Virus record (IMG/VR): IMGVR_UViG_3300008120_000150
Span: 1-35,928 of that record
Length of the DNA stretch: 35,928 nt
DNA from: a virus
Direction: 5' to 3' (one strand)
In this document: positions 3,812-35,214 of the stretch, in pieces
How the letters are laid out: every line of letters starts with the position of its first letter
How positions within the stretch are numbered: position 1 is the first letter of the stretch
Made by a program: the position numbers and the translations under genes
Notes under the pieces: generated by a model
Databases searched by the model: none
Seen by the model: the letters and a program-made list of their open reading frames with translations, nothing else
Told to the model about the DNA's origin: nothing

Positions 3812-5056
3812 GTGACCATATTCGTTCAAATAGCATCATACCGGGACCCTGAACTAGAAAATACAGTTAGGGATATGATATCAAACGCAGATAGACCCGA
3901 AAAATTAAGGTTTGGTATTGCAAGACAGTTCAGAGAAGAGGATGGTTTTGATAAATTAGAGGAATTTAGAGATGATAGTAGATTTAGAATCTTAGATATT
4001 CCTTACGAAGAATCAAACGGAGCTTGTTGGGCTAGACACCTTATCCAACAATTATATAAAAATGAAACCTACACCCTTCAAATTGATTCCCATATGAGAT
4101 TTGAAAAGGGTTGGGATACCACTTTGATTGATATGATCGATCAACTTCAAGAAGATGGACATGAAAAACCACTTCTTACGGGTTATGTGAGTTCATTCGA
4201 TCCCGATAACGATCCTGCGGGGAGAGCAAGAGATCCTTGGCAAATGGCGTTTGATAGATTTATTCCTGAAGGAGCGGTATTTTTCCTACCCGAAACAATT
4301 CCAAATTGGACAGAATTAACTAAACCAGTTCCAGCGAGATTCTACTCCGCACACTTTTGTTTTACTTTGGGACAATTTTCAAAAGAAGTTCAACACGATC
4401 CCGAATATTATTTTCACGGTGAAGAAATTAGTATTTCAGCAAGAGCGTATACTCACGGATATGATTTATTCCATCCTCACAAAGTAGTTGTATATCACGA
4501 ATACACCAGAAAAGGACGAACCAAACAATGGGATGACGATAAAAAGTGGGTTGAAAAAAACAATCACTCACACAAAAGGAACAGACAACTCTTTGGTATG
4601 GACGGGGAAGAAATGATTGACTTAGGTCAGTTTGGTTTTGGATCAGTAAGAACTTTAAGAGATTATGAAAAATATTCGGGATTACTTTTCAGTAAGAGAG
4701 CAATTCAAAAGTATACATTAGATAAAGGATACCCTCCAAATCCGTACAATTACGAAACAGAAGAAGATTGGATCAATTCATTCACAAAACAATTTAAACA
4801 TTGTATCGATGTTGGATATGATCGTGTACCTGAAAAAGATTATGATTTTTGGGTTGTTGCATTCCACGATCATAAAGATGAGACGATATACCGCAAAGAT
4901 GCGGATAAACATGAAATTCAAGGATTTTTCAGAGATCCTGACGGGTATTGTAAAGTTTGGAGAACTTTCAATGCAGAAGAAAAACCAGCATATTGGGTGG
5001 TTTGGCCACACTCTGAATCTAAGGGGTGGGGTGAAAGAATGATTGGTAACTTATGA
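3812..5056 (+). CDS. GT60-like GlcNAc transferase (polypeptide/Skp1-type glycosyltransferase)
   Basis: The 414-residue protein belongs to the GlcNAc/GT60 glycosyltransferase family (Pfam GlcNAc). Visible family hallmarks are the N-terminal VQIASYRDPEL strand, ARHLIQQLY helix, the metal/sugar-nucleotide motif LQIDSHMRFEKGWD (Asp92-Ser-His94), and YYFHGEEISISARAYTHGYD followed by HPHKVVVYHEY. Eukaryotic members transfer alpha-GlcNAc from UDP-GlcNAc to Thr of mucins (Trypanosoma cruzi) or to hydroxyproline of Skp1 (Dictyostelium). About 110 residues after the catalytic core form an extra Trp/Asp-rich C-terminal domain that I do not recognise. The GTG start is chosen because the conserved first strand begins at residue 3. 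It opens a tight operon and overlaps the next gene by four bases (ATGA). It likely glycosylates phage proteins or surface glycans. Confidence 0.85.
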   Translation: MTIFVQIASYRDPELENTVRDMISNADRPEKLRFGIARQFREEDGFDKLEEFRDDSRFRILDIPYEESNGACWARHLIQQLYKNETYTLQIDSHMRFEKGWDTTLIDMIDQLQEDGHEKPLLTGYVSSFDPDNDPAGRARDPWQMAFDRFIPEGAVFFLPETIPNWTELTKPVPARFYSAHFCFTLGQFSKEVQHDPEYYFHGEEISISARAYTHGYDLFHPHKVVVYHEYTRKGRTKQWDDDKKWVEKNNHSHKRNRQLFGMDGEEMIDLGQFGFGSVRTLRDYEKYSGLLFSKRAIQKYTLDKGYPPNPYNYETEEDWINSFTKQFKHCIDVGYDRVPEKDYDFWVVAFHDHKDETIYRKDADKHEIQGFFRDPDGYCKVWRTFNAEEKPAYWVVWPHSESKGWGERMIGNL

Positions 5057-9416: not shown

Positions 9417-10363
9417 AATTGACTGTATCATATGATGTGCTTTACAACGACTGGTATGCTGGTGAGTTCTACAATAAATTCTTTAATTATTTAAAAGATG
9501 TAAAAAGGATAGATGTAGAATACATTTCTTCGAATGAATTAGCCAAAATACATGGAAGTAAGGTTGATTATAACAATGGGTATCCATCTGTATTTCACCC
9601 ATTGAATTTAATAATTCAAAACAAACTTAATGGAAAAACATTTATTCATAGTTGGCATGATTATGCACCTGCAATTTTAGAATTTGGAAGTGGTATTGAA
9701 CATTTTGATGTTGTAAAATTTTCGTGTGTGTCACGATTGGATCAAGATATAATTAACAGATATTGGGGGAAAATTGATATCCAACCATCGATTTATTTAT
9801 TAGAAAATACTTCAGAATTAAATTTGATTGAAAAAAATAGAAAGAATAATAAAATATATAACAAGGTGTATATGAATGCATTATGTTACGATGTTAGAGA
9901 AAGAATTATCGACGTACTGAATACTAGTGAATTTTTTAATTTGAGAAAAAAAAACAAGGGTGATTTTTTAACAAAAAATAAATATTACGAAGAATTTTCT
10001 AAATATAAGTTTTCACTTAGTTTGGATGGCGCAGCTAAAATATGTTACAGAGATTTAGAATCATTTGGTTTAGGATGTTTATTATTACGAGAAAAACTTG
10101 ACGTACTCACTTATGATCCTTTAATAATAGATAAACATTATATTGAATTAATTGATGACGACATCAAATCAAAAATTTATTTAGATAATCATATTTCATA
10201 TATTGTTGAAAAAGTAGAAAATAAAATAAATGAAATAGTTACTTCCGGTTTTGATAAATTTATAATTAATGAGTCTAGATTGTGGTATGAAAGAAACTGT
10301 ATTCCTGATAATCAGATGGAAATAATTTATTCTTTTTTTGAAGATTTAGAAATTTTTAAATAA
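9413..10363 (+). CDS. Putative GT90/CAP10-like glycosyltransferase
   Basis: The 316-residue protein has a recognisable segment at about 196-230: YYEEFSKYKFSLSLDGAA, KICYRDLESFGLGCLLL. It resembles the GT90/CAP10 and related LpsA glycosyltransferase core, where a Gly/Ala-rich loop is followed by Arg and a Glu helix that binds the nucleotide sugar. Residues 1-120 hold a Rossmann-like first half with FIHSWHDYAPAIL. The C-terminus is helical and ends near the YERNCIPDNQME segment. The role is probably glycan elongation; donor and acceptor are not visible. It ends 48 bases before the large fusion gene. Confidence 0.55.
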   Translation: MKLTVSYDVLYNDWYAGEFYNKFFNYLKDVKRIDVEYISSNELAKIHGSKVDYNNGYPSVFHPLNLIIQNKLNGKTFIHSWHDYAPAILEFGSGIEHFDVVKFSCVSRLDQDIINRYWGKIDIQPSIYLLENTSELNLIEKNRKNNKIYNKVYMNALCYDVRERIIDVLNTSEFFNLRKKNKGDFLTKNKYYEEFSKYKFSLSLDGAAKICYRDLESFGLGCLLLREKLDVLTYDPLIIDKHYIELIDDDIKSKIYLDNHISYIVEKVENKINEIVTSGFDKFIINESRLWYERNCIPDNQMEIIYSFFEDLEIFK

Positions 10364-10411: not shown

Positions 10412-12796
10412 ATGAACATAGAGAGTAAAAGAATATTCGAAAATATATATCAAAATTATGGTTTTGGATCTACGGAATCCAAAAGTGGACCAGGTAGTAC
10501 ACTTTCATCTACTGAAAACCTCATAAAAAAATTAAAGTTAGTATTAAAGGAATATAGTATTAATTCTGTTACTGATCTACCTTGCGGTGATTTAAACTGG
10601 ATTCAGTATTTGTTCAGTGATATTCAAAGATATATTGGTTGCGACATCGTAGAAGAGTGTATTGAAGAAAATAGAAATAAATACCCATATCATGAATTCT
10701 ATTGTATAGACTTAGCCACTGATAAAATTCCCGAATCTGACTTATTGATTGTTAGAGATGTAATTGGTCATCAACCGATCGAAGTAGGTATTCAGATGGT
10801 TGAAAATATTTTAAGATCTGATTGTAAATATTTACTTTCTACAACATGGGCATTGAAAAAGGAAGATGGTTGGTCACCACCTTTAAAAGATTCAATAGAT
10901 CGAGAGAACGAAGGGGTTGATTACGGGAGGTTTTACCCTGTCAATTTGATGTCATCACCATTTAACTTTCCCGAACCGGAATTATATATTGAGGAAGACG
11001 TACATGTAGATAATTTTGAGAGTGGTAATAGAAAAACTTTGTCCTTGTGGAATTTATCTAAACTCAAAAAATATTTTTTAGAAAAAAAAATGGTCGATTC
11101 TGAAAAATCAAATAAAAATTTGAATAAAATAACTTTAGTAACGGGATTATGGGATATTGGTAGAGTTAATCTTGAGGAGGGTTGGTCTCGATCTTATGAA
11201 CATTACTTGAAAAAATTTAAGGAATTTCTTCATATACCTGAAAATTTAATTATTTTTGGTGATTCTGAACTGAAATCATTTGTCGAAAACAATAAATCTC
11301 ATGATAGAGTTCAATTCATTGAAAGAAATTTAGATTGGTTCAAAGGTGATTTTTATGATAAAATTCAAAAAATAAGAACTAATCCCGAGTGGTTTAATCA
11401 AAAGGGTTGGTTAAGTGAGTCAACTCAAGCACGTCTTGAGATGTATAATCCTTTGGTTATGCAAAAAATATTTTTATTGAACGATGCGAAAATCATGGAC
11501 CAATTTGATTCCAAATATATGTTTTGGATCGATGCTGGAATAACAAACACCGTTCACGGAGGATATTTCACACATGATAAAGTATTAGATAAATTACCCA
11601 AGTTTATAAATAAATTTTCTTTTATCTGTTTTCCCTATGATGCCGATGGTGAAATTCATGGATTTAATTATGATGAAATTTGTAAATTATCGGGTGCTCA
11701 GGTCAAAAGAGTCGCTCGTGGTGGTTTCTTCGGTGGTCCTAAAGATCAAATATCTGACGCTATGAACATCTATTATGGTATTACAAATGATACGATTAGT
11801 CGAGGTTTTATGGGTACAGAAGAAAGTATTTTTTCAATTATGGTTTACAAACATCCACAACAATTTGATTATTTTGAAATAGAGTCAAATGGTTTATTGG
11901 GTAAATTCTTCGAAGATTTAAAAAATTCTAATCTCAAAATTAAAAACGAAAGTAGGATATCAAATAAAAATATGAATTTGGACTTGAATAAAACTTCGGT
12001 TTATGTTATCACGTTTAACAGTCCAAAACAATTTGAAAAATTGTTAAATACTTTTATTCACTATGATGATGATTTTATTGAAAAACCAAAAAAATATTTA
12101 CTAAATAATTCAACAGATAGAAGTACCGATGAACTTTATGATGAACTTTGTGAGGAATATGATTTTATTCAAATTAAGTTCCCTGAAAATTTAGGAATTT
12201 GTGGTGGTAGACAATATATTGCCGAACATTTTGAAAACAGTGACTCGGATTTTATGTTTTTCTTTGAAGATGATATGTTTTTTTATGGAGGAATGGAGGA
12301 TTTTTGTAAAAATGGTTTTGGTAGAAAAGTTTCACAAATCTATTCTAAGTCATTAGAAATTACCAAAAACGAGGGATTTGATTTTTTAAAGCTTAACTTT
12401 ACTGAATTTTACGGTGATAACTCAACTCAATGGTCTTGGTATAACGTACCTCAGGATTTTAGAAATCAAAATTGGCCTGAGTATAACAAACTACCAACTC
12501 AAGGGTTAGATCCAAACGCACCAAGAACTAATTTCAAAAACATTAAAAGTTATAAGGGTATTCCTTATGCCATCGGAGAAGTTTATTATTCTAACTGGCC
12601 TCAAATTGTAACCAAAGAAGGTAATAAAAAAATGTTTTTGGAAACTACTTGGTCATATCCTCATGAACAAACTTGGATGTCACACATTTACCAAGAAACA
12701 CTCAAGAATAGAATATATCCTGGTATACTTCTCTTAACACCAACAGAACATAATCGTTTTGATCATTATGATAGTAAATTAAGAAAAGAGTCATAG
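10412..12796 (+). CDS. Triple fusion: SAM methyltransferase, HtrL/YibB-like domain, GT2-like glycosyltransferase
   Basis: The 794-residue protein has three parts. Residues 1-225 are a class I methyltransferase with motif I VTDLPCGDLNW (53-63), YIGCDIV and a later LIVRDVIGHQP, a type found in glycan-methylating proteins. Residues about 240-510 match the HtrL/YibB family: ITLVTGLWDIGR at the start and the FWIDAGITN strand supplying the acidic residue of a GT-A-like site. Residues about 526-794 look like a family 2-like glycosyltransferase: SVYVITFNSPKQFEKLL, LGICGGRQYIAEHF and the acidic FFFEDDMFF (about 616). It closes the operon. The order suggests addition of sugars and capping by methylation in one polypeptide. 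Linkers are Asn/Lys-rich. Confidence 0.8.
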   Translation: MNIESKRIFENIYQNYGFGSTESKSGPGSTLSSTENLIKKLKLVLKEYSINSVTDLPCGDLNWIQYLFSDIQRYIGCDIVEECIEENRNKYPYHEFYCIDLATDKIPESDLLIVRDVIGHQPIEVGIQMVENILRSDCKYLLSTTWALKKEDGWSPPLKDSIDRENEGVDYGRFYPVNLMSSPFNFPEPELYIEEDVHVDNFESGNRKTLSLWNLSKLKKYFLEKKMVDSEKSNKNLNKITLVTGLWDIGRVNLEEGWSRSYEHYLKKFKEFLHIPENLIIFGDSELKSFVENNKSHDRVQFIERNLDWFKGDFYDKIQKIRTNPEWFNQKGWLSESTQARLEMYNPLVMQKIFLLNDAKIMDQFDSKYMFWIDAGITNTVHGGYFTHDKVLDKLPKFINKFSFICFPYDADGEIHGFNYDEICKLSGAQVKRVARGGFFGGPKDQISDAMNIYYGITNDTISRGFMGTEESIFSIMVYKHPQQFDYFEIESNGLLGKFFEDLKNSNLKIKNESRISNKNMNLDLNKTSVYVITFNSPKQFEKLLNTFIHYDDDFIEKPKKYLLNNSTDRSTDELYDELCEEYDFIQIKFPENLGICGGRQYIAEHFENSDSDFMFFFEDDMFFYGGMEDFCKNGFGRKVSQIYSKSLEITKNEGFDFLKLNFTEFYGDNSTQWSWYNVPQDFRNQNWPEYNKLPTQGLDPNAPRTNFKNIKSYKGIPYAIGEVYYSNWPQIVTKEGNKKMFLETTWSYPHEQTWMSHIYQETLKNRIYPGILLLTPTEHNRFDHYDSKLRKES

Positions 12797-12813: not shown

Positions 12814-15800
12814 ATGATAAGTTTTTTTATAAAAAAATCTTCAAGTTTACCTTTATTACAGGTTGATCTCCTATTGGATGGTAGGAACCTATATAACATA
12901 TCCGAAAGTACCCTAACCGGATCAACTGTTTATTTTTCTATGTATGATGAGGAAACTGGTATCAAAAAAATATTAAAAGATCCTGTCATCGTTGTTTTAT
13001 CGGATGAAAAGATAGTTTTGAAATATCAATTCAATAAAAATAAAATAAAAAAAACAGGTAATTTTATAGGTGAATTTTTTATAACAAATAGTCGTGGTGA
13101 TGAAATAATACCAATATATGATAAAATTTATATTCATGTTATAGAATCAATATTTAATGAAGATTATGTAGAATGTTGTGGTCCCGATCAAAATATTATT
13201 GTGATTCCATCACAAACACCAAGTTTGACACCAACAATAACACCAACAAACTTAGCGTCTAATACTCCAATACCTACATCTACACCCACCAAAACACCCA
13301 CTACAACACCCACCAAAACACCTACCAATACCCCTACAAGTACCACCACTCCTACACAAACACCTACAAATACGGTCACACCTACTAATACTCCAACTCA
13401 GAGTGTAACTCCCACATTTACGCCGACAAATACATTTACACCGACAAACACAATTACTCCGACTCGTACTCAAACACCAACCGTGACACCATCTGTCAAT
13501 TGTAATGTAGTTGGATTAACAGTATTAAGTGTTAAAAACCCAAGTTTTTTTGGTGATTATTCTCAAATTGATGTTAGATGTTCAGGTCAAACAGGAACTT
13601 GGACGGTTAACCAAATTATTGCAAACACAGGATCTGGCGATATAACTTTGAACCCTAATACGGATTATATTACAGAATCAAACACCGGATCTACACCAAC
13701 TATCGAAACAATTATATCAGGATCTAGCATTTTAACATATGGATATACATATACTTTGTACTTCCTATCACCTTTCGGTTGTATTGAAACTCAATCCGTA
13801 ACATTTATAACACCGAGTCAAACACCAACAACAACACCAACAAGAACGGTTACTCCGACTTTATCTCCAACCACAACGGTCACAACAACTCCTACGAACA
13901 CAATTACACCAACAAATACTCTTACACCAACAAATACTCAAACACCGACAAATACTCAAACGCCAACTGTTACACCAACAGTGACCAACACTAAAACACC
14001 AACACCAACTAAAACTTCTACCCCAACACCTTCTCCTTTAACTGAATTAGAAATTAAATTTGGTTCCGAATATAGTTCGGGTTCATTGAAATCCATTTAT
14101 ACCTTTACTGCCTCTACAACTTATTCTCAAGACATTACTATTTCTTTTACTAATAGATTATATGATGAAGTCAGATCAGAATATGTTGATATACAAACTG
14201 GTGTAACAATAAGTCGTAACACTTTGACAGGAACGACCACCGTTATCTTACCTAGTGAGACTTATAGTAATTTTTTACCATACTTTTCGGAATTTTCAAA
14301 TATTACATCAACAAGACCAAATACCACATATGACAAGTATGCAAAAGTCACATTTGTAGGTGATTCTCCAATATATATAACTTGGAATTTTAGAACTTGT
14401 TGTGAGGGTGAGTCGGGTCCTGATATTTACATCCAAACAACCAGTACCGATTGGTTAAATAATGATGGTGGAATTGTATATAATGGTATATGTTATAAAC
14501 CGGTATCATTTGGATCAACCGGTGTTTTTGCCGGTACTTATTTGGGTGCTGATTTTTATGGAGATTGTAGAGATTATTATGAATGCTCTTGTTATACCGC
14601 GCCAACACCTTCCGAAACTGCCACACCAACAAGAACTCCAACACCAACAAGAACACCTACAAGAACTCTTACACCTACTATTACACCAACAACAACCGTT
14701 ACTCCAACAATAACATCAACACCCGCTTGTACTGCGGACTTGGGATGTTTTGCCGAAGGTGTTATCTGTGATTTGGGTTGTTACTCCAATTTAGTTTTCC
14801 TTACACCAACACCAACACCTACTAACACTGTAACACCAACCGTAACACCTCTTACATTACCTTTCTTCAGGGGTTGTAACACAGGGAATATTTATATTCT
14901 ATTCGATGGTCCCTTTGGTATTGGAAATGAGATTTATGGTAATTTCGGACAAACTTATTATGTACCGGAAATACAGGATGCGGGATATTTGGATGTTTGT
15001 GTAACTGTTGTTAACCAAACTGCTGATTATTTTATTTATAATGTGAATCAACCATCCTCTGTTTCGGGATGTTTATTCTCGGGTTGCACGATTACGGATG
15101 TCATAACATTACAAGCATGTTGTTCTGGTGAAAAGTACAATTTCTTGATTGTTAATATATTTGATTTCAATAATCCTGGACAAGTTTTAACACCATCAAT
15201 TGATGAAATTATTTTTACTAATATTTCTTCTGATGATAGTTTTATCAAACTATGTTTACAACGTGTAGATTTTGATCCGACCGCACCGTTCTTTGGTGAT
15301 GTCACATTCCAAGCATCGCTCTACGATGATTGTTACAACTGCACTATATATACTGCCGAAGAAAATTGTTTTATAGGTCATAGATTGGATGCTTGTTGTG
15401 AGGGACTTTATCCCGATATCAATGGATGGTTGCCTCCATATATAACTGAAGGTGATTTCATTGTAGCTGACGGATTAGCCTATTTTGTGGGTGGACCATT
15501 CACCGGTGATGTTTATTTTACAACTATTGAAACAGGATTCGTAAACTGTAATGAAGCGATTGCAGCATCGATTACCGTAGATTGCGTCTATCCACCAACA
15601 CCTACGGTAACTCCAACCTTAACTGTGACACCAACCTTAACTGTGACACCCACAGTCACTACAACACCAACAATTACAACAACACCTTATTACAATCTTG
15701 TAACATTTGAAGAGTGCTGTACTGGTGTCCGTTATAATTTCATTATTACCAATATTTTCAGTTTCGCAAATCCATCACAGAATCTACTACCATCTATAGG

Positions 15801-17358
15801 TGAAATTATGTTTACAAATAATTCAAATAATGCCAATTTCATTAAGAATTGTTATGAACGAGTTGAGTTTGATGTCACGGCACAAATTCAATCTTCTGTG
15901 ACATTTGAAATAACCCTTTACGATAATTGTTATTCATGCACACTTTATTCTGATGCGGATAATTGTTTTGTAGGTCGAAGATTGGATTCATGTTGCGATG
16001 GTTTATATCCTAATATAAATGGATGGTTACCTGATTACATCACAGAAGGGGACTTTATCGTTGCTGATGGAATTGCATACGAAGTTGGTGGTTTATTCCC
16101 CGGTGATGTTATTTTTGACACTATTGAAACAGGATTTATTTCTTGTGTCGACGCAGTTGCGGCTTCGGATGCTCCTGGATGTGTGGCAACCCCAACTCCA
16201 ACACCAACTTTAACAAAAACACCAACTCCGACTGTTACCAAAACACCAACTATTACTCCGACAAATAGTACTTTCACACCAAGAATACTTATCAGATGCT
16301 GTACAGATGGTCAAATAAATGCAATGTTACCACCTGAATTGATACCCGGTGATATTATTGAGTACGAATTCGCTGGTATTTTGAGGTGTTGGACCGTAGG
16401 TGGTATTGCACCAACCAACTCAAATTTTGTTAACAGTTATGTTTTACATAATAATTGTTTACAATGTGCAGCATGTATTGGTGAGATTGATGTTAACTGT
16501 AACCCAAGTGATCCAGGATATTTCTGTGGAACACCAACACCAACACCAACTACCACCCCTACAATAACACCAACAAAAACCACCACACCAACACCGACAG
16601 TTACTAGTACACCTGATCCAATATATTCTTTCGAATCATGTGCGTATAATCATAACTCAAACTTTGCAAATATTGGTTACAATACACATACATTCAATAA
16701 AATAACAACACAAACATATAATATTGGTGATACCGTTAGAATGTTGATACCTATAACATCATTCGGAAATACTTTCAATATTGAGGAGTGTTACAAAGTA
16801 ATTCCTTACAATAGCGGTCTTCCGTTTAACACAACATATGTTGAAAACGGTACTTTACTTTGTGGTCAAGGTAAATGTGCTGTGACATATGTTGGATTGA
16901 CAAACTGTGCAACCAATAAAACAATTGTGGCGTCTTTTGATTATCTCACAAGCGAATTCCAATCAGCCTCAGTTGGTGACGAGATATACGCACCATATCT
17001 TTTAAATGAACAAAACGCATTGATTGGTCCGAATGATAGTATTTGTTGGACAATTGCATCACCTGGATCAACAATAACGACGGCTCAGAATGGTGATATT
17101 TTCACATATTGGGATGAGTTGGTTGATCCTGTTGCTAGTTGTTTAGATAGTACTTGTTCTAATTGTAAAAGTGGATTTACATTAACAAATGTCTCTGGTT
17201 CCATTCAGACATTCTCCTATCAATCTTGCACGGGTACGAATTATTCTGTAACTCTTACTGATAATCAATCTACCACAATCAATATTTGTGTCAAAGTAAA
17301 TAAACTATTCCATGATTATGGTGTGTTAATAACCATAACAGGAGGAAATGCTTGTTAA
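12814..17358 (+). CDS. Giant modular fibre-like protein with PT stalks and Cys-rich domains (1514 aa)
   Basis: Residues 1-115 form a domain shared with the separate 124-residue protein at 19820 ([17 protein letters not shown]...[12 protein letters not shown]...GEFFI). Then Pro/Thr-rich linkers (about 132-228, 333-408, 596-638, 664-680, 926-959, 1126-1154 and 1240-1268) separate globular domains rich in paired Cys. Two tandem homologous domains occupy about 766-926 and 965-1125: CCxGxxYNFxIxNIF near the start, RRLDxCCxGLYPxINGWLP and [18 protein letters not shown] later. The last about 75 residues ([13 protein letters not shown]...TINICVK) resemble a domain inside the 569-residue protein at 18106. 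The layout is that of a long, flexible phage fibre or surface adhesin. The first domain may anchor it to the particle. No enzymatic motif is seen. Confidence 0.85.
13207..13497 (+). repeat. PT-rich coding repeat, first stalk of the giant fibre protein
   Basis: About 97 residues of TPTxTPT units follow the anchor domain. Inserted residues between the TPT units are Lys, Asn, Ser, Gln, Val and Phe. This is the longest stalk of the protein and contains no Cys. Confidence 0.85.
13810..14037 (+). repeat. PT-rich coding repeat, second stalk of the giant fibre protein
   Basis: It joins the first Cys-paired domain to the beta-rich domain that begins [10 protein letters not shown]. Near-identical TPTNTQTPT blocks at about 13930-13970 show local duplication. 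Confidence 0.8.
14600..14726 (+). repeat. PT-rich coding repeat with Arg (TPTRTPTRT), third stalk
   Basis: Unlike the other linkers, this one is dominated by [13 protein letters not shown], which adds positive charge. It lies between CSCYTAP and the short Cys-rich segment [11 protein letters not shown]. Confidence 0.75.
15591..15690 (+). repeat. PT-rich coding repeat between the two duplicated Cys-rich domains
   Basis: It contains a perfect tandem 18-base duplication (15613-15630 and 15631-15648, unit CCAACCTTAACTGTGACA, encoding PTLTVT in the protein frame), which points to a recent slippage event. Confidence 0.8.
16189..16275 (+). repeat. PT-rich coding repeat after the second Cys-rich copy
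   Basis: A short linker with Lys between units ([14 protein letters not shown]) joins the second duplicated domain to the domain containing [15 protein letters not shown]. Confidence 0.7.
16531..16617 (+). repeat. PT-rich coding repeat before the last domains of the giant fibre protein
   Basis: A Thr-heavy version ([21 protein letters not shown]) precedes the final two globular domains. Confidence 0.7.
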
Positions 17359-17370
17359 TTATTTTTAAAA

Positions 17371-18093
17371 ATGCCAACTAATATAGAAATAGGAATGACA
17401 AATGAAATTATCGGAATTACATCTTATGATGTTTTCGTTAGTGAATGCGTTCAACCACCGGTTTGGCAACAAGTTGGAAATGATTTGTCTTTTGATGACT
17501 TTCCTGTGATCTTGGATTTAGAACAATATATTACAATAACTAATAATTGTTATTTATATTATATTTCGGGTGATACTGGTTGTTATTGTGAGCTAACAGG
17601 GTCGACAAATCCACCAACAGTCACACCCTCAAATACACCAACAATTACACCAACAAACACCGTAACACCATCAATAACACCAACAATTTCTTTAACACCC
17701 TCCATAACACCAAGTGTATCTATAACTCCTTCAATAACACCAAGTATTTCATTAACACCGACCGTAACACCGACCGTAAGTAAGACGCCAACAATGACAC
17801 CCACACCAACAAATACACCGACCAAGACTCCGACACCGACTTTAACACCAACACCAACTAAAGCATGTACGGCAGTTGTCTTGAATTGGACTTTTGATGG
17901 TGGTCAAGCATGTAGTGGCGGATTTACAAACACAAATACTTATTATGGACAATCCGTTTTACAAAACGGGGGTTATTTATATCAAGACTCAAGTTGTTCA
18001 ACACCAGTTCCAGCAGGTAGATTTTTACTTCAGGGTGGATTAGTTTTTGAAGTTGTTGGATTACAGGGTCAGATTTTTGAAGTTATATGTTAA
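17371..18093 (+). CDS. PT-stalk protein, short paralogue (domains B-PT-C)
   Basis: The 240-residue protein has an N-terminal domain of about 80 residues (MPTNIEIGMTNEIIGITSYD, SECVQPPVWQQV, CYLYYISGDTGCYCE). A Pro/Thr-rich stalk of about 86 residues follows, then a C-terminal domain of about 70 residues (LNWTFDGGQACSGGFTNTNT, YYGQSVLQNGGYLYQDSSC, PVPAGRFLLQGGLVFEV). Both ends are closely matched by the next gene, which carries extra domains between them. The ISGDTGCYC segment with paired Cys may form disulfides, or bind metal. Function is unknown; architecture suggests a virion surface or fibre component. It begins 12 bases after the giant fibre gene and likely belongs to the same transcript. 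Confidence 0.8.
   Translation: MPTNIEIGMTNEIIGITSYDVFVSECVQPPVWQQVGNDLSFDDFPVILDLEQYITITNNCYLYYISGDTGCYCELTGSTNPPTVTPSNTPTITPTNTVTPSITPTISLTPSITPSVSITPSITPSISLTPTVTPTVSKTPTMTPTPTNTPTKTPTPTLTPTPTKACTAVVLNWTFDGGQACSGGFTNTNTYYGQSVLQNGGYLYQDSSCSTPVPAGRFLLQGGLVFEVVGLQGQIFEVIC
17608..17865 (+). repeat. PT/Ser-Ile-rich coding repeat in the short paralogue
   Basis: The units here are mainly TPSITPS and TPTxT, so Ser and Ile are more common than in the other stalks. The pattern [20 protein letters not shown] recalls the end of the LamG protein's stalk ([15 protein letters not shown]). Confidence 0.8.
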
Positions 18094-18105
18094 AAATTAA
18101 TTGAA

Positions 18106-19815
18106 ATGCCAACAGTAGTACAAATAGGAATGAATGGACAAATCGAAGGTAATACCTTTGATGTTTTAGTTAGTGAATGTGTTCAACCACCTAACTGGGT
18201 TCTGGTCGCTGACGATTATTTGTCATCTCAATTTCCAATTTTTGTAGATCTTGATTCATTTTTGAATTTAACCACTGATTGTTTTCTTTATTATATTTCC
18301 GGTGATACTGGTTGTTATTGTTCTGAAACAGGTTCAACAATACCACCCACTCCAACACCAACTGTTACACCAACAAATACTCCGTCAAACACACCTACAA
18401 ATTCTGTAACACCTACTAATACCGCAACACCCACTGTTACACCAACAGTTACACCAACAAACACAAAGACACCAACCCCAACCCCAACTCCAACCTCATT
18501 ATGTCCAATTAACTTTACATCTTATTCTTCGGACACCATAAATTGTTTTGGTGAATATTATTCCTATGCCTATGATACACCACCAGATGACATCATAAGT
18601 ATCTGTGAATTACTTCTTGGTGGAGCAGTAGGTGTTGATGAGATTAACGGTAAATTCAACACAAACAAAATAAATTGTACTCTTTATACTTGTAGTGTGA
18701 ATTGTGACACAGAAGTTGTTGTTTATAATAGTCAATCACAAACAATAACTTACGATACTTTCATTGATACGTGTCTTCAAAACAATCCAAGTACACCACA
18801 AACTTCAGGTTTACCTTGTTACGCATATAACTCATCACAAGATCAGATTTACTACATCAGTTATTCCGGTTATAACCCGAACATCGTTCCAACCGGGAAT
18901 GAATTGGTTACGATACAGAAATATGTTAATTGCCAAAGTTATCATGATATTTTTGTAACACTCGATGGTGGTCAATGGTCTCTTAACGGAGTTACAGGTA
19001 ATCCAACAATTACACTATGTCCTGAAATAACATATAGATTCCATGTTTATACAGGAGCAACGGGTGCGGGTGCGGAATTCGTGCTAGGTAGAGACAGAAC
19101 AGAACTTGGTGTTACTTGTGTGAATGGTAACCAAACACCCTGGAATGCTTACTGTGGTGAAATAATTTATGGTAATAATAACACTTTCAACGAAGCGTTC
19201 TATACTACAGTATTCAAACCCTGGTCTTCAGGTCCGAACTCAGATTACACTTCTAGTCCCGAAAACGCTATGTTCTACAAGGACATAAATGACGAAACTA
19301 ATTACGGATACATCAACATTGTTTCAAGTGCTTGTTGTCAAAGTGGTATTACAGTTACTAACACATCCACAAGTCAATCTGTCACATTTACCTACGTTGG
19401 ATGTAACTCTACCGTGTATTCGTCAAGTGTCCCAATCGCATTCCCCGGTACCACAGCATCAACAAGTATTAACCGTTGTATTTACAGAAATTCAATTACA
19501 TTTACAAGTGCAAATCAGGGAACCGTAGATACTACGAATATTGGTTACTGTACTGGTTGTACAGATAGTTCAGCAGTTATTGCTCAGTGTAATCAATTAT
19601 CTTTGAATTGGACAACTGATGGTGGTCAAGCTTGTTCTAATATTTTCACAAATACTAGTACCTATTACGGACCTACAGTTCTTCAAGATGGAGATCATCT
19701 CTATATAGATTCTTCCTGTATCATACCAGCGCCTGTCGGAAGATTTATAGGTCAGAGTGGAAATGTTTTCGAAGTCATTAATACTGATGGGGAGTTAAAT
19801 CTAATCATATGTTAA
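18106..19815 (+). CDS. PT-stalk protein, long paralogue with inserted domains (B-PT-inserts-C)
   Basis: The 569-residue protein starts MPTVVQIGMNGQIEGNTFDV, SECVQPPNWVLV, FLYYISGDTGCYCSE and ends LNWTTDGGQACSNIFTNTST, YYGPTVLQDGDHLYIDSSC, APVGRFIGQSGNVFEV. These match the two ends of the preceding protein. Between the stalk and the C-terminal domain lie about 350 extra residues with several Cys-paired beta-rich domains. One (SGITVTNTSTSQSVTFTYVG...INRCIYRNS) resembles the C-terminal domain of the 1514-residue protein. Such constant ends with a variable centre suggest domain exchange. A fibre or adhesin role is inferred. It is followed by the anchor-like protein after four bases. Confidence 0.82.
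   Translation: MPTVVQIGMNGQIEGNTFDVLVSECVQPPNWVLVADDYLSSQFPIFVDLDSFLNLTTDCFLYYISGDTGCYCSETGSTIPPTPTPTVTPTNTPSNTPTNSVTPTNTATPTVTPTVTPTNTKTPTPTPTPTSLCPINFTSYSSDTINCFGEYYSYAYDTPPDDIISICELLLGGAVGVDEINGKFNTNKINCTLYTCSVNCDTEVVVYNSQSQTITYDTFIDTCLQNNPSTPQTSGLPCYAYNSSQDQIYYISYSGYNPNIVPTGNELVTIQKYVNCQSYHDIFVTLDGGQWSLNGVTGNPTITLCPEITYRFHVYTGATGAGAEFVLGRDRTELGVTCVNGNQTPWNAYCGEIIYGNNNTFNEAFYTTVFKPWSSGPNSDYTSSPENAMFYKDINDETNYGYINIVSSACCQSGITVTNTSTSQSVTFTYVGCNSTVYSSSVPIAFPGTTASTSINRCIYRNSITFTSANQGTVDTTNIGYCTGCTDSSAVIAQCNQLSLNWTTDGGQACSNIFTNTSTYYGPTVLQDGDHLYIDSSCIIPAPVGRFIGQSGNVFEVINTDGELNLIIC
18340..18507 (+). repeat. PT-rich coding repeat in the long paralogue
   Basis: About 56 residues of Pro/Thr units separate the N-terminal domain from the variable centre. 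The stretch is shorter than the stalk in the 240-residue paralogue and has more Asn (TPTNTPSNTPTNS). Confidence 0.8.
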
Positions 19816-19819
19816 AACT

Positions 19820-20194
19820 ATGGAATTCTTTATCAATAAAAACTCCAATCTTCCCCTCCTTAAAGTAGAACTTACTAAGGATGGGGTAACGATGTTTACT
19901 GACTTTATGGATGATCTTGAAAAGGCAACCATTTTCTTTTCTATGAATGATGTTGCTACGGGAACCAAGAAAGTCGTAAATCAAAGAGCGTTTATAACTG
20001 CAAAAGAATTTACTGAACCTGAAACAAATACCGAATATTATATTTTTTATAAATTCAGATCTCAGGACACAAACAGGGTTGGAAGATATGAAGGTGAATT
20101 TTTTATTTCTATACCCGGAAAAGGTGTTTTAAAAACTCCAATTCGTGAACCTTTATTTATTAATGTCAAGGACTCAATTGATTTAACGGTCTAA
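19820..20194 (+). CDS. Stand-alone anchor-like domain, paralogue of the giant fibre N-terminus
   Basis: The 124-residue protein MEFFINKNSNLPLLKVELTK...ATIFFSMNDVATGTKKVV...GRYEGEFFISIPGKGVLKTPI...LFINVKDSI aligns through its length with residues 1-115 of the protein at 12814. Shared positions include FFI-K-S-LPLL-V-L, FSM-D-TG-KK and G-GEFFI. It lacks any PT stalk or Cys. A structural role, perhaps as the capsid- or tail-bound base for fibres, is inferred from its being the first domain of the fibre in the other gene. The module brackets the fibre block: it begins the first gene and forms the last. Confidence 0.78.
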   Translation: MEFFINKNSNLPLLKVELTKDGVTMFTDFMDDLEKATIFFSMNDVATGTKKVVNQRAFITAKEFTEPETNTEYYIFYKFRSQDTNRVGRYEGEFFISIPGKGVLKTPIREPLFINVKDSIDLTV

Positions 20195-20260: not shown

Positions 20261-22975
20261 ATGAAAGAAGCACCATCACCCGACGTTATCAAGTCCTTCC
20301 TTGAGGGAAGTGACCCCGAAGAACATATCGTTTCCGTTGAATTTGATTTCGTAAACGACTGTATATATAAAATCAAAGAAGTACCTGGTAGGGGTAAAAC
20401 AATCCAAAGGGATACATTTATTCCCTTCGCTTGGGTTGGAGATTTAAGATCTCTAAAGTTCTATAATGGATCCAAAGAACTTCAACAAAAAGCAATTAGT
20501 GAACACAAAATCGTTATTGAAAAACTCGAAACCCATGACAACGAGCGATTGGAGAAGGGGTTGACCTTTATGGTTAAATGTCTCAATGGTTATCGTAGTT
20601 TGATTAAATTCTTCCGTGACGGAGGAATTGATCCTTATGGTGAAAAAGGTAAGGATAAGATTATGATCCTTCCACCTGTGGAACAATATCTAATCCAAAG
20701 AGAAAAAAGGTTGTTCAAAGGTTTTTCTGAATATAACGAGATCACCCGTTTTGTATTTGACTTGGAGACGACCTCTTTGGAACCGAAGGACGGTCGTATC
20801 TTTATGATCGGTATGAAAACCAACAAAGGTTATCATCGGGTTATTGAATGTCATGACGATGAAACCGAGAAGAATGGTATTATTGAATTCTTCAAGGTAA
20901 TCAATGAACTCAAACCCTCCATCATTGGATCATATAACGGATTCAACTTTGACTGGTTTTGGATCTTTGAAAGGTGCAAAATCTTGGGATTGGATATCAA
21001 ACAAATCTGTATATCCCTTAACCCTGAGAGAAAGATTTCTCAAAGGGAAAATATGTTGAAACTCGCCAACGAGGTGGAGAAATATGTTCAAACCTCCATT
21101 TGGGGGTATAATGTGATTGATATTATCCATGCGGTGAGAAGAGCTCAAGCGATTAACTCCGATATTAAATCGGCAGGTCTTAAGTATATTACCAAATATA
21201 TCGGAGCGAACAAAGAAAATCGTGTGTATATTGATCACACAGACATCGGACCGTTTTATCGTGATAATGAAAACTTTTGGTTAAATATCCAAAACGGAAA
21301 TTGGAGAAAAGATAAAGAAGAGTTTAAGGATTTGGATGTTCGGTTTCCCGGTGTTTACCAAAAGGTGACGGGTATGGAACTTGTGGAGAAATATCTTGAT
21401 GGTGACTTGGAGGAAACGATGGTTGTGGATGAAGAATATAATCAAGCATCATTCCTTCTTGCGTCCATGCTTCCCACCACTTATGAAAGGGTTTCAACGA
21501 TGGGAACGGCAACCCTGTGGAAGATGCTTATGCTCGCATGGTCTTATAAACATAAGCTTGCCATTCCCGCAAAAGAAGAAAAAACCAACTTCGTGGGAGG
21601 ATTGTCACGACTAATTAAGGTGGGTTATTCTGAAAATGTCTTGAAACTTGACTTCTCTTCTCTTTATCCTTCCATTCAACTTGTTCATGATGTTTTCCCT
21701 GAATGTGATGTAACCAATGCGATGAAGGGGATGCTTAAGTTTTTCCGTGATGCGAGGATCCAATATAAACAACTTGCTGAAGACCATTATTCTACCAATC
21801 CGAAGTTGTCATCACAATATAATAGAAAACAACTTCCGATTAAGATCTTCATCAACTCCATGTTCGGCGCTTTGTCAGCTCCTCAAGTATTCCATTGGGG
21901 TGATATGTATATGGGTGAGCAGATCACTTGTACAGGAAGACAATACTTGCGTCAGATGATCAAGTTTTTTATGGACAAAGGATTTGACCCCCTCGTTATG
22001 GATACCGACGGTGTGAACTTCTCTTCACCACCCGATGTCGAGGACTATGAATATATCGGAAAGGGATTGAACTGGAAGGTTCAAAAGGGAAAGGTATATA
22101 AGGGTACTGAAGCTCACGTGGCTGAGTATAATGATATCTATATGAGGGGAGAGATGGCTTTGGACACTGACGGGGTTTGGCCTTCTTGTATCAATGTGGC
22201 GAGAAAGAACTATGCTCTTGTAACGGCAAAAGGAAAAATCAAACTTGTGGGAAATACTATTAAGTCAAAGAAACTTCCGATCTATATTGAAGAATTTATT
22301 GACAAGGGATTGAGAATGCTTCTCGCAGGTGATGGTGAAGGGTTTGTCGCATATTACTACGACTATATAGATCAGATTTATAACCGTCAAATTCCTTTGT
22401 TAAAAATTGCAAACCGAGCAAAAGTAAAACTATCTATTGAAGATTATGTCAAAAGGTGTGGTATGAAAACTACCGCAGGAAATCCGATGTCACGTATGGC
22501 ACATATGGAACTAGCAATTAAAGAAAACCTGAAGGTAGATCTTGGTGATGTGATTTATTATGTAAATAATGGAACCCGCCAATCTCACGGGGATGTTCAA
22601 AAGAAAAAAGATGAATTAATCATCAATTGTTATCGTTTGGATTCTCAAGATATTGAAAACAACCCCGATAAGGTGGGTGAATATAATGTTCCAAGAGCAA
22701 TCAATACGATCAACAAACGAATTGAACCTCTTTTGGTTGTGTTTGATGAAATTGTTCGTGATAACCTTTTGATTGATAATCCAAAAGATAAGTATGTGTT
22801 CACAAAAACACAATGTAAACTTATCAATGGTAAGCCGATCAAGGAAACTGACCAAGATTCTTTGGAAGAGGTTTTGACTATTTCAGATCAGGAACTCGAA
22901 TATTGGAGAAAGAGGGGACTTTCACCAAACTACATCTACGAACTTGCGGATTTGGAGTTGGTTAGTCCCACTTAA
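20261..22975 (+). CDS. gp43: Family B DNA polymerase with 3'-5' exonuclease (T4 gp43-type)
   Basis: The 904-residue protein replicates phage DNA. The exonuclease domain has Exo I FVFDLETTSL (Asp167, Glu169), Exo II SYNGFNFDW (Asp231) and Exo III YLDGD (Tyr378, Asp382). The polymerase domain has motif A LKLDFSSLYPS (Asp464), motif B KIFINSMFG (Lys528, Asn532, Gly536) and motif C VMDTDGVNF (Asp581, Asp583). Motif C has Gly where most family B enzymes have Ser (DTDS). Length equals T4 gp43 (898). No intein or split is seen. Its G+C content is visibly higher than that of the glycosyltransferase block. Its 3' end overlaps the convergent gene at 22962 by 14 bases. Confidence 0.95.
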   Translation: MKEAPSPDVIKSFLEGSDPEEHIVSVEFDFVNDCIYKIKEVPGRGKTIQRDTFIPFAWVGDLRSLKFYNGSKELQQKAISEHKIVIEKLETHDNERLEKGLTFMVKCLNGYRSLIKFFRDGGIDPYGEKGKDKIMILPPVEQYLIQREKRLFKGFSEYNEITRFVFDLETTSLEPKDGRIFMIGMKTNKGYHRVIECHDDETEKNGIIEFFKVINELKPSIIGSYNGFNFDWFWIFERCKILGLDIKQICISLNPERKISQRENMLKLANEVEKYVQTSIWGYNVIDIIHAVRRAQAINSDIKSAGLKYITKYIGANKENRVYIDHTDIGPFYRDNENFWLNIQNGNWRKDKEEFKDLDVRFPGVYQKVTGMELVEKYLDGDLEETMVVDEEYNQASFLLASMLPTTYERVSTMGTATLWKMLMLAWSYKHKLAIPAKEEKTNFVGGLSRLIKVGYSENVLKLDFSSLYPSIQLVHDVFPECDVTNAMKGMLKFFRDARIQYKQLAEDHYSTNPKLSSQYNRKQLPIKIFINSMFGALSAPQVFHWGDMYMGEQITCTGRQYLRQMIKFFMDKGFDPLVMDTDGVNFSSPPDVEDYEYIGKGLNWKVQKGKVYKGTEAHVAEYNDIYMRGEMALDTDGVWPSCINVARKNYALVTAKGKIKLVGNTIKSKKLPIYIEEFIDKGLRMLLAGDGEGFVAYYYDYIDQIYNRQIPLLKIANRAKVKLSIEDYVKRCGMKTTAGNPMSRMAHMELAIKENLKVDLGDVIYYVNNGTRQSHGDVQKKKDELIINCYRLDSQDIENNPDKVGEYNVPRAINTINKRIEPLLVVFDEIVRDNLLIDNPKDKYVFTKTQCKLINGKPIKETDQDSLEEVLTISDQELEYWRKRGLSPNYIYELADLELVSPT

Positions 22976-30540: not shown

Positions 30541-33500
30541 ATGGCAACAGCAAATTCAGTATTCGTATCTCCTGGAGTATATACTTCAGAACGAGACTTA
30601 TCGTTTGTGGCTCAAAGTGTGGGTGTTACCACGTTGGGTCTCGTCGGTGAGACATTACAGGGTCCCGCATTTGAACCCGTCTTCATCAAAAATTTCGATG
30701 AATTCCAATTGTATTTTGGAGGAACCAATCCAACCAAATTTGTAAACACTCAAATCCCAAAATATGAGGCAGCTTATATTGCTAAAGCATATCTTCAACA
30801 ATCCAACCAACTTTTCGTTACAAGAATTTTGGGTCTTTCTGGTTATGATGCTGGTCCTTCTTGGTCAATCAAAACCATTTCTAACCCTGATGTAGACACC
30901 GTTGCATTGTCCTCTAACTTAGGTACTTTTGGTTTCACTTTTGTGGGTACGACAGCTTCTACAAGTAGCGTCTCTATTACCCTTTCAGGTGGTGGTGCTA
31001 GTTCATACATTTCAAGTGTCACAGGTAATACTGTAACTTTTGCAAATGGTACTACTTCTACTGTATTAGATGAAATCGAGGGTTTTGCTTTTGATATTAT
31101 TTCAGACAATACTTTGTCAGGAGATACTGCTTATGTATATGGTTCTTTATCCGCAGGTACATTCAATGCACTTACAGCTGCTGGTTTCACAGAACTTGTT
31201 AACGTGTTTGGTTGTGATAATTTGAACGCATCAAGTGCGGATTTAACAGCGGTAAGTAACGATACATGGTATTATAGTTTGTTTGAGTTAACCAATGATA
31301 CTTACACTGGTTTGTCCTTCACATCAAGAATAAGTACATTGACGACTAACGGAACTGGTTCTTACACAGGTACTTGTGTCGGTTTTGTTAACTCTTATAC
31401 AGCAGATACTTACTCTGATTCTCATAACTTAGTTGTTGGTACTTTCAGATCAAGAGGTGTTTCACTATATAATGATAACAATAACCCAACCTACGAAGTA
31501 ACAGGAACTACCGATGTTGTTATGTTAGATAACTTGAATGGTATTTCACAAAATCCTTTCAATAACTTCACAGTTTCTGGTATTACAAAAGATTCGGTTA
31601 CATTCAGTTTCCAAACTTCATTCCAGTCATCTAATACTGATTTTGTTGGTAAGGTGTTTGGTAGATCCAACTTCAACAAAGATAGAACGGAAGTTCCTTT
31701 GTTCATTGAAGAAGAGTATTCAGGTCTTATGGCAACACTTTACAATCAAGGTAAAATTAGAGGTCTTTCGACAAGTTTGGTTTCTTTTGATTCCGCACAA
31801 AGTTTAGATCCTGATACTATTGGTTGGTACTGTGAACAATATCAAACACCATCTACACCTTATGTTGTCTCTGAACTTCGTGGTGATACAGTTGAAAGAT
31901 TGTTCAGATTTATTTCTATCTCCGATGGTAATAACGCTAACAGACAAATCAAGATTTCTTTGGTTAACATGTCTTTCGCAAACAACAACTTTGATATCTT
32001 GGTTCGTGATTTCTACGATACAGATGAAAATCCTGTAGTTTTGGAAAGATTTGCGAATTGTACTATGGATGTTTCAAGTCCAAGTTACATAGCTTTGAAG
32101 GTTGGTACCGCTAATGGTGAGTACGAATTGAAGTCAAAGTATATCATGCTTGAGATTGTCGAGGGTCACCCCGTTGACTCTCTTCCCTGTGGTTTCGAAG
32201 GATATATCTCAAGAAATTATTCAACTAACATTTCTCCCTTCTTGGTTTATAAAACACAATACTACACACCAGGACAACTTGTTTATACACCCCCATTTAA
32301 TACACCCGTATTAACAGCAGGTGGTGGAGCTTCAAGTGTTAGAAGTTCAGGTGATAAAGTTAGAAGAACTTACTTGGGTCTATCTAACGTACAAGGTTAT
32401 GATGCGGACTTCTTCTCATACAAAGGAAAACAATTACCTGATAACATTGCAACTGATACAACATCAGCTGACTGGACTTACTTGACTCAAGGTTTCCACA
32501 TGGATATTAACGCAAGTGCTATCACGATTCCAAGTATATATGTAACTTCGGGTCAATCAGCATATCAGTGTGGTGTTGCTACTTTCCAAGCGGAACCAAC
32601 TTCATCAACAAGTCCTTACTATAAAATTTACTCACGTAAATTTACTCTCTTACCTGCTGGTGGATTTGATGGATGGGATATCTACAGAGAATACAGAACC
32701 AACGCAGATGCCTACCAACTCGGAGATACCAAATATCTTCTCGGAGCAGCGGCGACGGCACAATTCCCTGACGCTTCAGGATGGGGAGCATTCAAGAAGA
32801 TCACCGATGGTGAGAACACTGAATGGGCAAACACGGACTACTACGCATACCTTAAGGGTTTCCAAACATTTAATAACCCTGCGTCTGTTAACATCAATGT
32901 GTTTGTAACACCAGGTATCGATTATGTTAATAATTTAGCTCTCGTTCAAGATGCTATTGATATTGTTGAACAAGATAGAGCTGACTCAATTTACATCACA
33001 ACCACACCTGACTATGATATGTTTGTAGCGACTACTTCAGATCCTGAGGACTTCATTTATCCTACAGATGCTGTTGTTAATTTAGAAGATAGTGATATTG
33101 ATTCTAACTACACCGCAACTTACTATCCCTGGATTTTGGTTAAAGATAGTGTTAACAACACAAATCTTTGGATACCACCTACATCAGAAGTTGTGAGAAA
33201 CTTGGCACTTACAGATAATATTGCATTCCCCTGGTTCGCATCAGCAGGTTACTCAAGAGGTTTGGTAAATGCTGTTAAAGCAAGAAGAAAACTTACACAA
33301 GAAGATAGAGACATCCTTTATCAAGGAAGACTCAACCCAATTGCTACCTTCTCTGATGTTGGTCCAGTTATCTGGGGTAACAAAACACTTCAGGTACGTG
33401 AGTCAGCTCTTGACAGAATCAACGTAAGAAGATTGTTGTTACAAGCTCGTAAGTTGATTTCCGCAGTTGCTGTTAGACTTCTCTTCGAACAGAACGACCA

Positions 33501-33723
33501 ACAGGTAAGACAGGATTTCTTGGATGCCGTCAATCCAATCTTAGATGGTATCAGAAGAGACAGAGGTCTTACTGACTTCAGAGTAACTGTGTCAAGTTCC
33601 CCTGAAGATATTGATAGAAACCAATTAACAGGTAAGATTTATATCAAACCAACAAGATCTTTGGAATTTATTGATATTGAATTTGTAATCACACCAACAG
33701 GTGCATCGTTTGAAAATATCTAA
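30541..33723 (+). CDS. gp18: Contractile tail sheath protein, enlarged (1060 aa)
   Basis: The protein forms the contractile sheath around the tail tube. Conserved N-terminal segment: VFVSPGVYTSERDLSFVAQS, VGETLQGPAFEPVFIKNFDE. Later comes a sheath core segment, FRFISISDGNNANRQIKISL and FDILVRDFYDTDENPVVLER (about residues 458-500). The C-terminal domain contains NVFVTPGIDYVNNLALVQDA, PWFASAGYSRGLVNAVKARR, QEDRDILYQGRLNPI, RRLLLQARKLISAVAVRLLF and FVITPTGASFENI. T4 gp18 has 659 residues. Much of the extra length lies in a Thr/Ser/Gly-rich insertion at about 120-430, probably a surface-facing domain. It is followed by a strong terminator. Confidence 0.93.
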   Translation: MATANSVFVSPGVYTSERDLSFVAQSVGVTTLGLVGETLQGPAFEPVFIKNFDEFQLYFGGTNPTKFVNTQIPKYEAAYIAKAYLQQSNQLFVTRILGLSGYDAGPSWSIKTISNPDVDTVALSSNLGTFGFTFVGTTASTSSVSITLSGGGASSYISSVTGNTVTFANGTTSTVLDEIEGFAFDIISDNTLSGDTAYVYGSLSAGTFNALTAAGFTELVNVFGCDNLNASSADLTAVSNDTWYYSLFELTNDTYTGLSFTSRISTLTTNGTGSYTGTCVGFVNSYTADTYSDSHNLVVGTFRSRGVSLYNDNNNPTYEVTGTTDVVMLDNLNGISQNPFNNFTVSGITKDSVTFSFQTSFQSSNTDFVGKVFGRSNFNKDRTEVPLFIEEEYSGLMATLYNQGKIRGLSTSLVSFDSAQSLDPDTIGWYCEQYQTPSTPYVVSELRGDTVERLFRFISISDGNNANRQIKISLVNMSFANNNFDILVRDFYDTDENPVVLERFANCTMDVSSPSYIALKVGTANGEYELKSKYIMLEIVEGHPVDSLPCGFEGYISRNYSTNISPFLVYKTQYYTPGQLVYTPPFNTPVLTAGGGASSVRSSGDKVRRTYLGLSNVQGYDADFFSYKGKQLPDNIATDTTSADWTYLTQGFHMDINASAITIPSIYVTSGQSAYQCGVATFQAEPTSSTSPYYKIYSRKFTLLPAGGFDGWDIYREYRTNADAYQLGDTKYLLGAAATAQFPDASGWGAFKKITDGENTEWANTDYYAYLKGFQTFNNPASVNINVFVTPGIDYVNNLALVQDAIDIVEQDRADSIYITTTPDYDMFVATTSDPEDFIYPTDAVVNLEDSDIDSNYTATYYPWILVKDSVNNTNLWIPPTSEVVRNLALTDNIAFPWFASAGYSRGLVNAVKARRKLTQEDRDILYQGRLNPIATFSDVGPVIWGNKTLQVRESALDRINVRRLLLQARKLISAVAVRLLFEQNDQQVRQDFLDAVNPILDGIRRDRGLTDFRVTVSSSPEDIDRNQLTGKIYIKPTRSLEFIDIEFVITPTGASFENI

Positions 33724-33736
33724 ACAACTATTTAAT

Positions 33737-33767
33737 AAAAGGGGGAGAAAAGGTCTCCCCCTTTTTT
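33737..33767 (+). terminator. Rho-independent terminator after the tail sheath gene
   Basis: AAAAGGGGGAGA (33737-33748) pairs with TCTCCCCCTTTT (33754-33765) across a five-base loop, followed by a run of T residues. It lies 13 bases after the sheath stop. The next gene starts only five bases downstream of it, so some read-through may be expected. Confidence 0.88.
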
Positions 33768-33772
33768 AAAAA

Positions 33773-34636: not shown

Positions 34637-34643
34637 AAACTAG

Positions 34644-34652
34644 AATATTTAT
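34644..34652 (+). promoter_or_regulatory. AATATTTAT element in the tail tube leader
   Basis: Exact match 73 bases upstream of the ATG at 34726, just after the stop of the HAD-like gene. The 89-base leader also contains a small inverted repeat, CTAGT...ACTAG (about 34669-34684). Confidence 0.42.
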
Positions 34653-34725
34653 TATTAAAATAAACTACCTAGTGAACTAACTAGATAAAGAAATAAAATA
34701 AACTGAATAAAAGTAAATAGAAAAT

Positions 34726-35214
34726 ATGGCAGACTTACTAATGAAAATGCCGGTTCCTTATGAACCCAAAAGAAAAAATAGATTTATCCTCAGATTTCCT
34801 TCATCTTTGGGTATAAATGAGTGGTTTGTTGAGTCAACCTCAAGACCACAAATTACAATCAACCCCGTTGAAATTCCATTTTTAAATACCTCTACCTATG
34901 TTGCAGGAAGATTTAATTGGAATACCATCAATGTTACCTTCAGAGATCCAATCGGACCATCAGCGTCACAAGCACTTATGGAGTGGGTTAGACTTCATGC
35001 TGAATCTGTCACAGGTCGTATGGGTTATGCTGCGGGTTACAAGAAAGACATTGACCTTGAACTTTTAGATCCAACCGGTGTTGTGGTTGAAAAGTGGATT
35101 TTACAAGGTACTTTCCTTTCTGATGTTAACTTTGATTCGTTAGGATATAGTGAAGATGGTCTCGCAACCATCACAGCAACACTTCGTCCTGATAGATGTA
35201 TTCTTGTCTACTAA
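34726..35214 (+). CDS. gp19: Tail tube protein (T4 gp19-type)
   Basis: The 162-residue protein matches T4 gp19 (163 residues) in length and pattern. Features include YEPKRKNRFILRFPSSLGIN near the N-terminus, FVESTSRPQITINPVEIPFL, NTINVTFRDPIGPSASQALM, EWVRLHAESVTGRMGYAAGY, LDPTGVVVEKWILQGTFLSD and the end SEDGLATITATLRPDRCIL. It polymerises into hexameric rings inside the sheath through which DNA passes. The start is fixed by the conserved MADLLMKMPVPYEPKRK. The downstream gene probably overlaps its last 19 bases. Confidence 0.95.
   Translation: MADLLMKMPVPYEPKRKNRFILRFPSSLGINEWFVESTSRPQITINPVEIPFLNTSTYVAGRFNWNTINVTFRDPIGPSASQALMEWVRLHAESVTGRMGYAAGYKKDIDLELLDPTGVVVEKWILQGTFLSDVNFDSLGYSEDGLATITATLRPDRCILVY

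Follow-up and report, generated by a model that had tools for sequence, protein, structure and literature searches.

A probable hypervariable island of modular, baseplate-attached host-binding proteins in an uncultured contractile-tail phage

Our analysis of the window (the whole 35,928-nucleotide stretch of viral DNA, IMG/VR record IMGVR_UViG_3300008120_000150) identifies positions 12814–19815 as what is likely a hypervariable island of an uncultured contractile-tail phage, one that encodes modular proteins for host binding, probably attached to the baseplate, and that changes by exchange and by module shuffling. Four genes, B, C, D, and E, lie on one strand, just 5′ of a family-B DNA polymerase gene (20261–22975), and threonine-proline (PT) linkers are present in B, C, and D. 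The PT-linked proteins beside the polymerase probably constitute a host-binding island. Tail sheath, tube, and baseplate hub are encoded at 30541–35927, downstream of the island, and by this gene content the window is a fragment of a contractile-tail phage. In the sheath protein (30541–33723, 1060 aa), the sheath-family match is confined to residues ~747–1058, and a long N-terminal part is present besides. On the other side of the island, positions 10412–12796 encode a 794-aa protein with a methyltransferase-like front followed by HtrL_YibB and GT2-like parts; its match in the closest relatives starts at residue 237, the front being absent or different there. In the plan that we propose, each island protein would carry at its N-terminus a small, conserved domain for attachment, which is BppU-N-like for B and E and FN3-like for C and D; a PT spacer and variable, mostly cysteine-rich β modules would follow. 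The features of the island are as follows.

12814–17358, + strand: gene B, 1514 aa; anchor, PT linkers, and modules; putative fusion, gene-1 anchor joined to gene-2 body
12814–13200, + strand: B anchor domain, residues 1–129; E paralogue with predicted BppU-N-like fold (modelled on E)
13201–13503, + strand: B first PT linker, residues 130–230; holds the putative fusion junction
13504–13794, + strand: B module X, residues 231–327; 55% identical to L085 gene 2
13795–14052, + strand: B PT linker 2
14053–14586, + strand: B module S, residues 414–591; found in gene 1 of L005/L007 and in gene 2 of L085
15097–15573, + strand: B module, residues 762–920; copy 1 of an internal duplication
15574–15693, + strand: B PT linker separating the duplicated modules
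15694–16164, + strand: B duplication copy 2, residues 961–1117; 62% amino acid identity to copy 1; single copy in L085
17164–17307, + strand: B C-terminal stretch, residues 1451–1498; like D module M2
17371–18093, + strand: gene C, 240 aa; N-domain, PT, and C-domain; putative shortened copy
17371–17592, + strand: C N-domain, residues 1–74; putatively FN3-like by analogy with the D model
17593–17877, + strand: C PT linker, residues 75–169
17878–18090, + strand: C C-terminal domain, residues 170–240
18106–19815, + strand: gene D, 569 aa
18106–18315, + strand: D N-domain, residues 1–70; weak FN3-like fold
18316–18522, + strand: D PT linker, residues 71–139; the sole one in D
18523–19290, + strand: D module M1, residues 140–395; its homologues are the bodies of those L085/L005/L007 genes that share the D N-domain
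19327–19575, + strand: D module M2, residues ~408–490; like the end of B
19585–19812, + strand: D C-terminal domain, residues 494–569; joined to M2 without PT
19820–20194, + strand: gene E, 124 aa; an anchor domain standing alone; marks the island's conserved right border

Comparison with close relatives recruited through the polymerase gene (L005 and L006, which are identical over 22.7 kb and count as one, L007, L008, and L009) reveals that divergence is restricted to the island. In particular, the window and L005/L006 are 95.9% identical in DNA over 8310 bp from position 19820 (E) onward, whereas 8% of the 6 kb upstream of 19820 aligns. Between L005 and L007, identity is ~94–95% across ~68 kb upstream of the island, except for indels of accessory genes and one stretch at 44–47 kb that varies more mildly, and is 67–74% for the island genes, where alignment is partial. 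That second, milder stretch (L260; L005 contig, positions 44046–47721; 78–80%) contains a short PT segment. In the same comparison, dS is 0.31 for the polymerase, 0.34 for E, and 0.30 for the gene-1 anchor, and ranges from 1.1 to saturation for the other island modules; this local near-saturation of synonymous sites argues that the island has been exchanged and is not merely fast-evolving.

Amino acid divergence climbs from the N-domains to the distal modules: the N-domains of genes 2, 4, and 5 are 92, 79, and 65% identical between L005 and L007, their distal modules are 33–59% identical, and the gene 1 anchor is 93% identical, against 86% and 61% for the rest. The greater conservation of the anchor relative to the distal part is the pattern of modular receptor-binding proteins (RBPs). 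The gradient would also fit point mutation under strong diversifying selection without any exchange, an explanation that we consider highly improbable, because synonymous sites are near saturation too (dS 1.1–2.5 vs 0.3), which selected point mutations would not be expected to bring about locally, and because gene number and gene order differ.

The islands of L005 and L007 each have five genes: one of B type, one whose N-domain is different (MATQ...), one for a PT-free protein of 735/769 aa, and two that carry the C/D N-domain. The PT-free protein (L005 3541–5748, L007 3803–6112) is absent from the window and is 38–41% identical between L005 and L007, genomes otherwise ~95% identical. In a further relative, L085, the island comprises three adhesin genes and one methyltransferase-like insert, a 184-aa gene at 9417–9971 between gene 2 and gene 3. 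In L009 (3360–3760) the island has collapsed to a truncated anchor, which stops after 107 aa, a 24-residue PT remnant read in a different frame, and an intact E; if this collapse is real, the island is dispensable for that phage. The initial annotation had suggested modular diversification at this locus, and the relatives make a stronger case than was claimed: gene numbers and module orders vary between flanks that are 94–96% identical, and collinear domain sets in all relatives are not what is seen.

Only four islands are near complete, and as all were assembled from metagenomes, some joins could stem from repeats. We nonetheless regard it as very unlikely that the architectural differences are largely artefacts of assembling PT repeats from short reads. 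Such artefacts would fit the facts that every sequence is a metagenome contig, that the L085 linkers contain long perfect tandem repeats of 30 and 54 bp, and that the contigs of L008 and L085 terminate within the island or close to it. Against this, L005 and L006, which are differently numbered records (possibly from the same sample source), are identical including the island; the window linkers share at most 19 nt of exact sequence; and the module sequences themselves differ, which misassembly cannot produce.

The positions of the exchange edges suggest a first route of change, in which whole or partial islands would be replaced through homologous recombination with relatives. Specifically, the left edge falls near codon 80 of the anchor, ahead of the PT linker, and the right edge falls in the interval from the last stop codon to the start of E; the window and L005 are 95% similar where B begins and 68% similar over the next 60 bp. 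With edges located in conserved flanking genes (B start and E start), it is apparently through these flanks that blocks are exchanged. The pattern extends to wider relatives with polymerase identity above 80%, where many pairs align over 0–55% upstream of E and mostly over ~100% downstream; the pairs L011–L048, L076–L080, and L016–L030 have a conserved upstream region.

A second route is suggested by the architecture of B: modules may be gained, lost, duplicated, or moved onto another anchor. B residues 1–129 match L085 gene 1 (57%), while B residues 177–969 correspond to the L085 gene 2 body (50% over 796 columns). L085, L005, and L007 keep a gene-2 N-domain, 71–92% conserved among them, that the window lacks. 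The linker at 13201–13503 aligns with the L085 gene 1 linker over 258 nt (74%) and with the L085 gene 2 linker over a 27-nt stretch (96%). Most simply, B would be a gene-1 anchor fused to a gene-2 body, with the junction inside this PT linker; parsimony with L085 as outgroup suggests the direction of the change. Module S is likewise located behind the gene-1 anchor in L005/L007 and behind the gene-2 N-domain in L085, so that one module occurs on different anchors in two instances, module S and the B fusion. B also contains an internal module duplication (62%), which L085 lacks, and L005 gene 5 has one additional module, with PT linkers on both sides, that is missing from L007 gene 5.

The two reading frames in which the variation was initially recognized, C (17371–18093, 240 aa) and D (18106–19815, 569 aa), are both present and are paralogues. 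Their N-domains are 56% identical in amino acid sequence over 78 residues and their C-terminal domains 60% over 72; D carries a central extra segment of ~355 residues (140–493) that is missing from C; and D residues ~408–480 (M2) resemble the end of B (residues 1451–1498; 39% over 54, E 9e-5). The shared domains, the extra residues, and the likeness to B thus stand as initially described; near-identical PT DNA beside each domain does not. D has one linker, and M1, M2, and the C-domain adjoin directly with no PT between them, so the right edge of the extra segment does not lie at a PT repeat. M1 and the bodies of the corresponding L085, L005, and L007 genes are homologous (hhalign 85.5%, E 5.7e-6), and the D C-domain also terminates a cut-off gene preceding E in L008 (89%). 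We rejected D as an expanded copy, since M1 is homologous to the relatives' bodies; by the same homology, C is more simply the shortened copy. D would thus keep the inherited layout with the addition of M2 and the C-domain, and C would most simply be a tandem copy of a gene running from N-domain and PT to C-domain, a copy that has lost its middle.

Searches with these domains returned few further sequences. The D N-domain alone as query gave no matches, and the N-domain alignment as query gave one further relative, L085; searches with the C-domain, module S, and the gene-2 N-domain gave only the same few contigs, and D and E had no match among phage records. No receptor-binding or depolymerase domain of known type was detected by Pfam or PHROGs. 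The structure model of D is mostly of low confidence (pLDDT 44), the usable parts being the N-, M2-, and C-domains, and the FN3-like match of the N-domain in this predicted model is weak (Z 5.3).

The likeness of the linkers at the DNA level is almost wholly forced by their amino acid pattern. The local alignment score of the C and D linkers, 54, was matched by 105 of 200 synonymous-codon shuffles, which rules out near-identical DNA. Across all ten window linkers, no exact run in common exceeds 19 nt, the longest; longest shared runs average 13.8 nt, compared with 12.8 nt in shuffles (range 12.2–13.6).

The further suggestion that the PT repeats are recombination points holds in part, in that some junctions do fall in PT and the main exchange edges fall elsewhere. 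A strong form of it, in which PT-coding repeats are dedicated hotspots that actively swap domains between paralogues, we judge unlikely. It would be in keeping with the junction in the first linker of B, with the PT remnant in L009, with the PT-flanked module of L005 gene 5, and with an L011 gene whose similarity to L015 and L029 ends at or in a PT stretch. It is contradicted by linker DNA likeness at codon-shuffle level, by the placement of the main exchange edges outside PT, and by junctions without PT, namely those joining M1, M2, and the C-domain in D (including its right junction), the left edge of the B duplication, and the island edges. Moreover, a disordered spacer would gather surviving junctions through selection alone.

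A further point concerns the PT-tailed protein A (233–2527, 764 aa, with a constant 12-aa tail), whose homologues in L005 and L007 have a 163-codon PT linker that is 99% identical although the islands of the two differ; PT repeats alone therefore do not cause divergence and are ruled out as its sufficient cause. Change in PT linker length is common: the A linker has 117 residues in the window and 163 in L171, a difference of ~46 codons. We considered A as a further case of module exchange and rejected this, as the window, L171, and L180 share the 12-aa tail and only the linker length differs; the gene following A is more diverged in the same comparison. Our preferred reading is that PT spacers look like permissive joints where cuts survive, as distinct from proven hotspots, and that second-route junctions would often lie in PT linkers because linkers tolerate cuts and length change.

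Several glycosyltransferases are encoded between PT protein A and the island, including a GlcNAc-family enzyme at 3812–5053 (PF11397, E 3e-77), which is often 65–76% conserved over the wider phage group. This enzyme could, as a prediction, modify PT linkers. It is unlikely that the proteins are mucin-like adhesins in which PT forms dedicated interchangeable shuffling joints that are O-glycosylated by the phage's own predicted glycosyltransferases. Co-occurrence of glycosyltransferase and PT was not significant (p 0.11). Literature searches turned up no account of phage baseplate proteins with PT linkers.

E is a paralogue of the B N-terminus (32% identity over 120 positions, covering the first 113 residues of B), and this anchor domain belongs to a family for which viral metagenomes hold over 500 members. 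The anchor had no match in cultured phages (50,697 phage records), none in a genome collection of 84,980 species at the sensitivity used, and no sequence match in Pfam, PHROG, or PDB; for Pfam BppU_N (PF10651) there was no significant match, with one of 82 anchor members at E 0.12. An AlphaFold model of E is a confident β-sandwich (pLDDT 83) with an Ig-like, BppU-type fold, and structurally it comes closest to baseplate proteins from three phages: 80alpha (6v8i_AJ, Z 8.4), TP901-1 (4v96_AL, Z 8.3, 104 residues aligned, 4.0 Å), and NF5 (9m8o_P, Z 8.0; Foldseek E 1.2e-4), a margin of ~1 Z over unrelated Ig folds (Z 7.3). Given the small Z margin and the lack of a profile match, we name the domain BppU-N-like and infer baseplate attachment of the anchor proteins from the model. 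The term "fibre" used in the initial annotation is accordingly better replaced by "baseplate-anchored adhesin", on the strength of the predicted anchor fold. The 138 distinct anchor ORFs include 82 stand-alone and 52 long ones; a PT linker directly follows the anchor in 37 of the 52, and any PT is present in 267 of 1781 background ORFs.

The island is the likely host-recognition locus of a large phage group in which the anchor has no cultured relative. With flanks ~95% identical and islands that differ, these phages offer a clean natural system for separating allele exchange from module shuffling in phage adhesins, and island types could be matched with host range in samples from the environment.

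The island proteins resemble several known systems in strategy. TP901-1 BppU has a 122-residue N-terminal domain and connects the Dit core to receptor-binding proteins (PMC3893620), and 80alpha FibL and FibU both have BppU-like N-domains with different shafts (PMC7048315). As in these lactococcal and staphylococcal proteins, an N-terminal Ig-like attachment domain of ~120 aa is predicted here from the fold match of the E model; as in 80alpha, paralogues share an N-domain and differ in what follows, B and E sharing theirs. Unlike BppU, FibL, and FibU, the anchor has no detected sequence similarity to them, E stands alone, the window phage is contractile-tailed, and the spacers are PT-rich, not coiled coil or collagen: the anchor is followed by a PT linker in B, with no helical coiled-coil shaft, and E ends there. 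Distal tail-fibre genes of T4-like phages are mosaic (PMC2993671), and the adhesin genes here are similarly hypervariable and mosaic in genomes that are otherwise similar. Unlike T4-like fibres, the proteins are unrelated, are encoded by several tandem multi-domain genes, and have PT linkers at joints.

In tailspikes and other RBPs, the general pattern is a constant N-terminus with exchange of the distal part. As in a published treatment of tailspike and RBP modularity (PMC10408124), a constant anchor is combined with a variable receptor module, binding being predicted; unlike tailspikes, no tailspike family was detected, and each chain carries many small cysteine-rich modules. Modular Ig-like adhesins occur in varied combinations in gut myoviruses and crAss-like phages (PMC13370021), and the island proteins are likewise probable multi-domain Ig-like surface proteins in varied combinations, unlike those adhesins in that Pfam detected no BACON, PKD, or Big domain in B, C, or D. 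Unlike targets of diversity-generating retroelements, the island changes at synonymous sites generally, and no reverse transcriptase was found among the window proteins scanned, a subset of the ORFs. The island is a known strategy, a constant anchor with variable receptor modules, in a new protein setting, in which the proteins would function as host adhesins.
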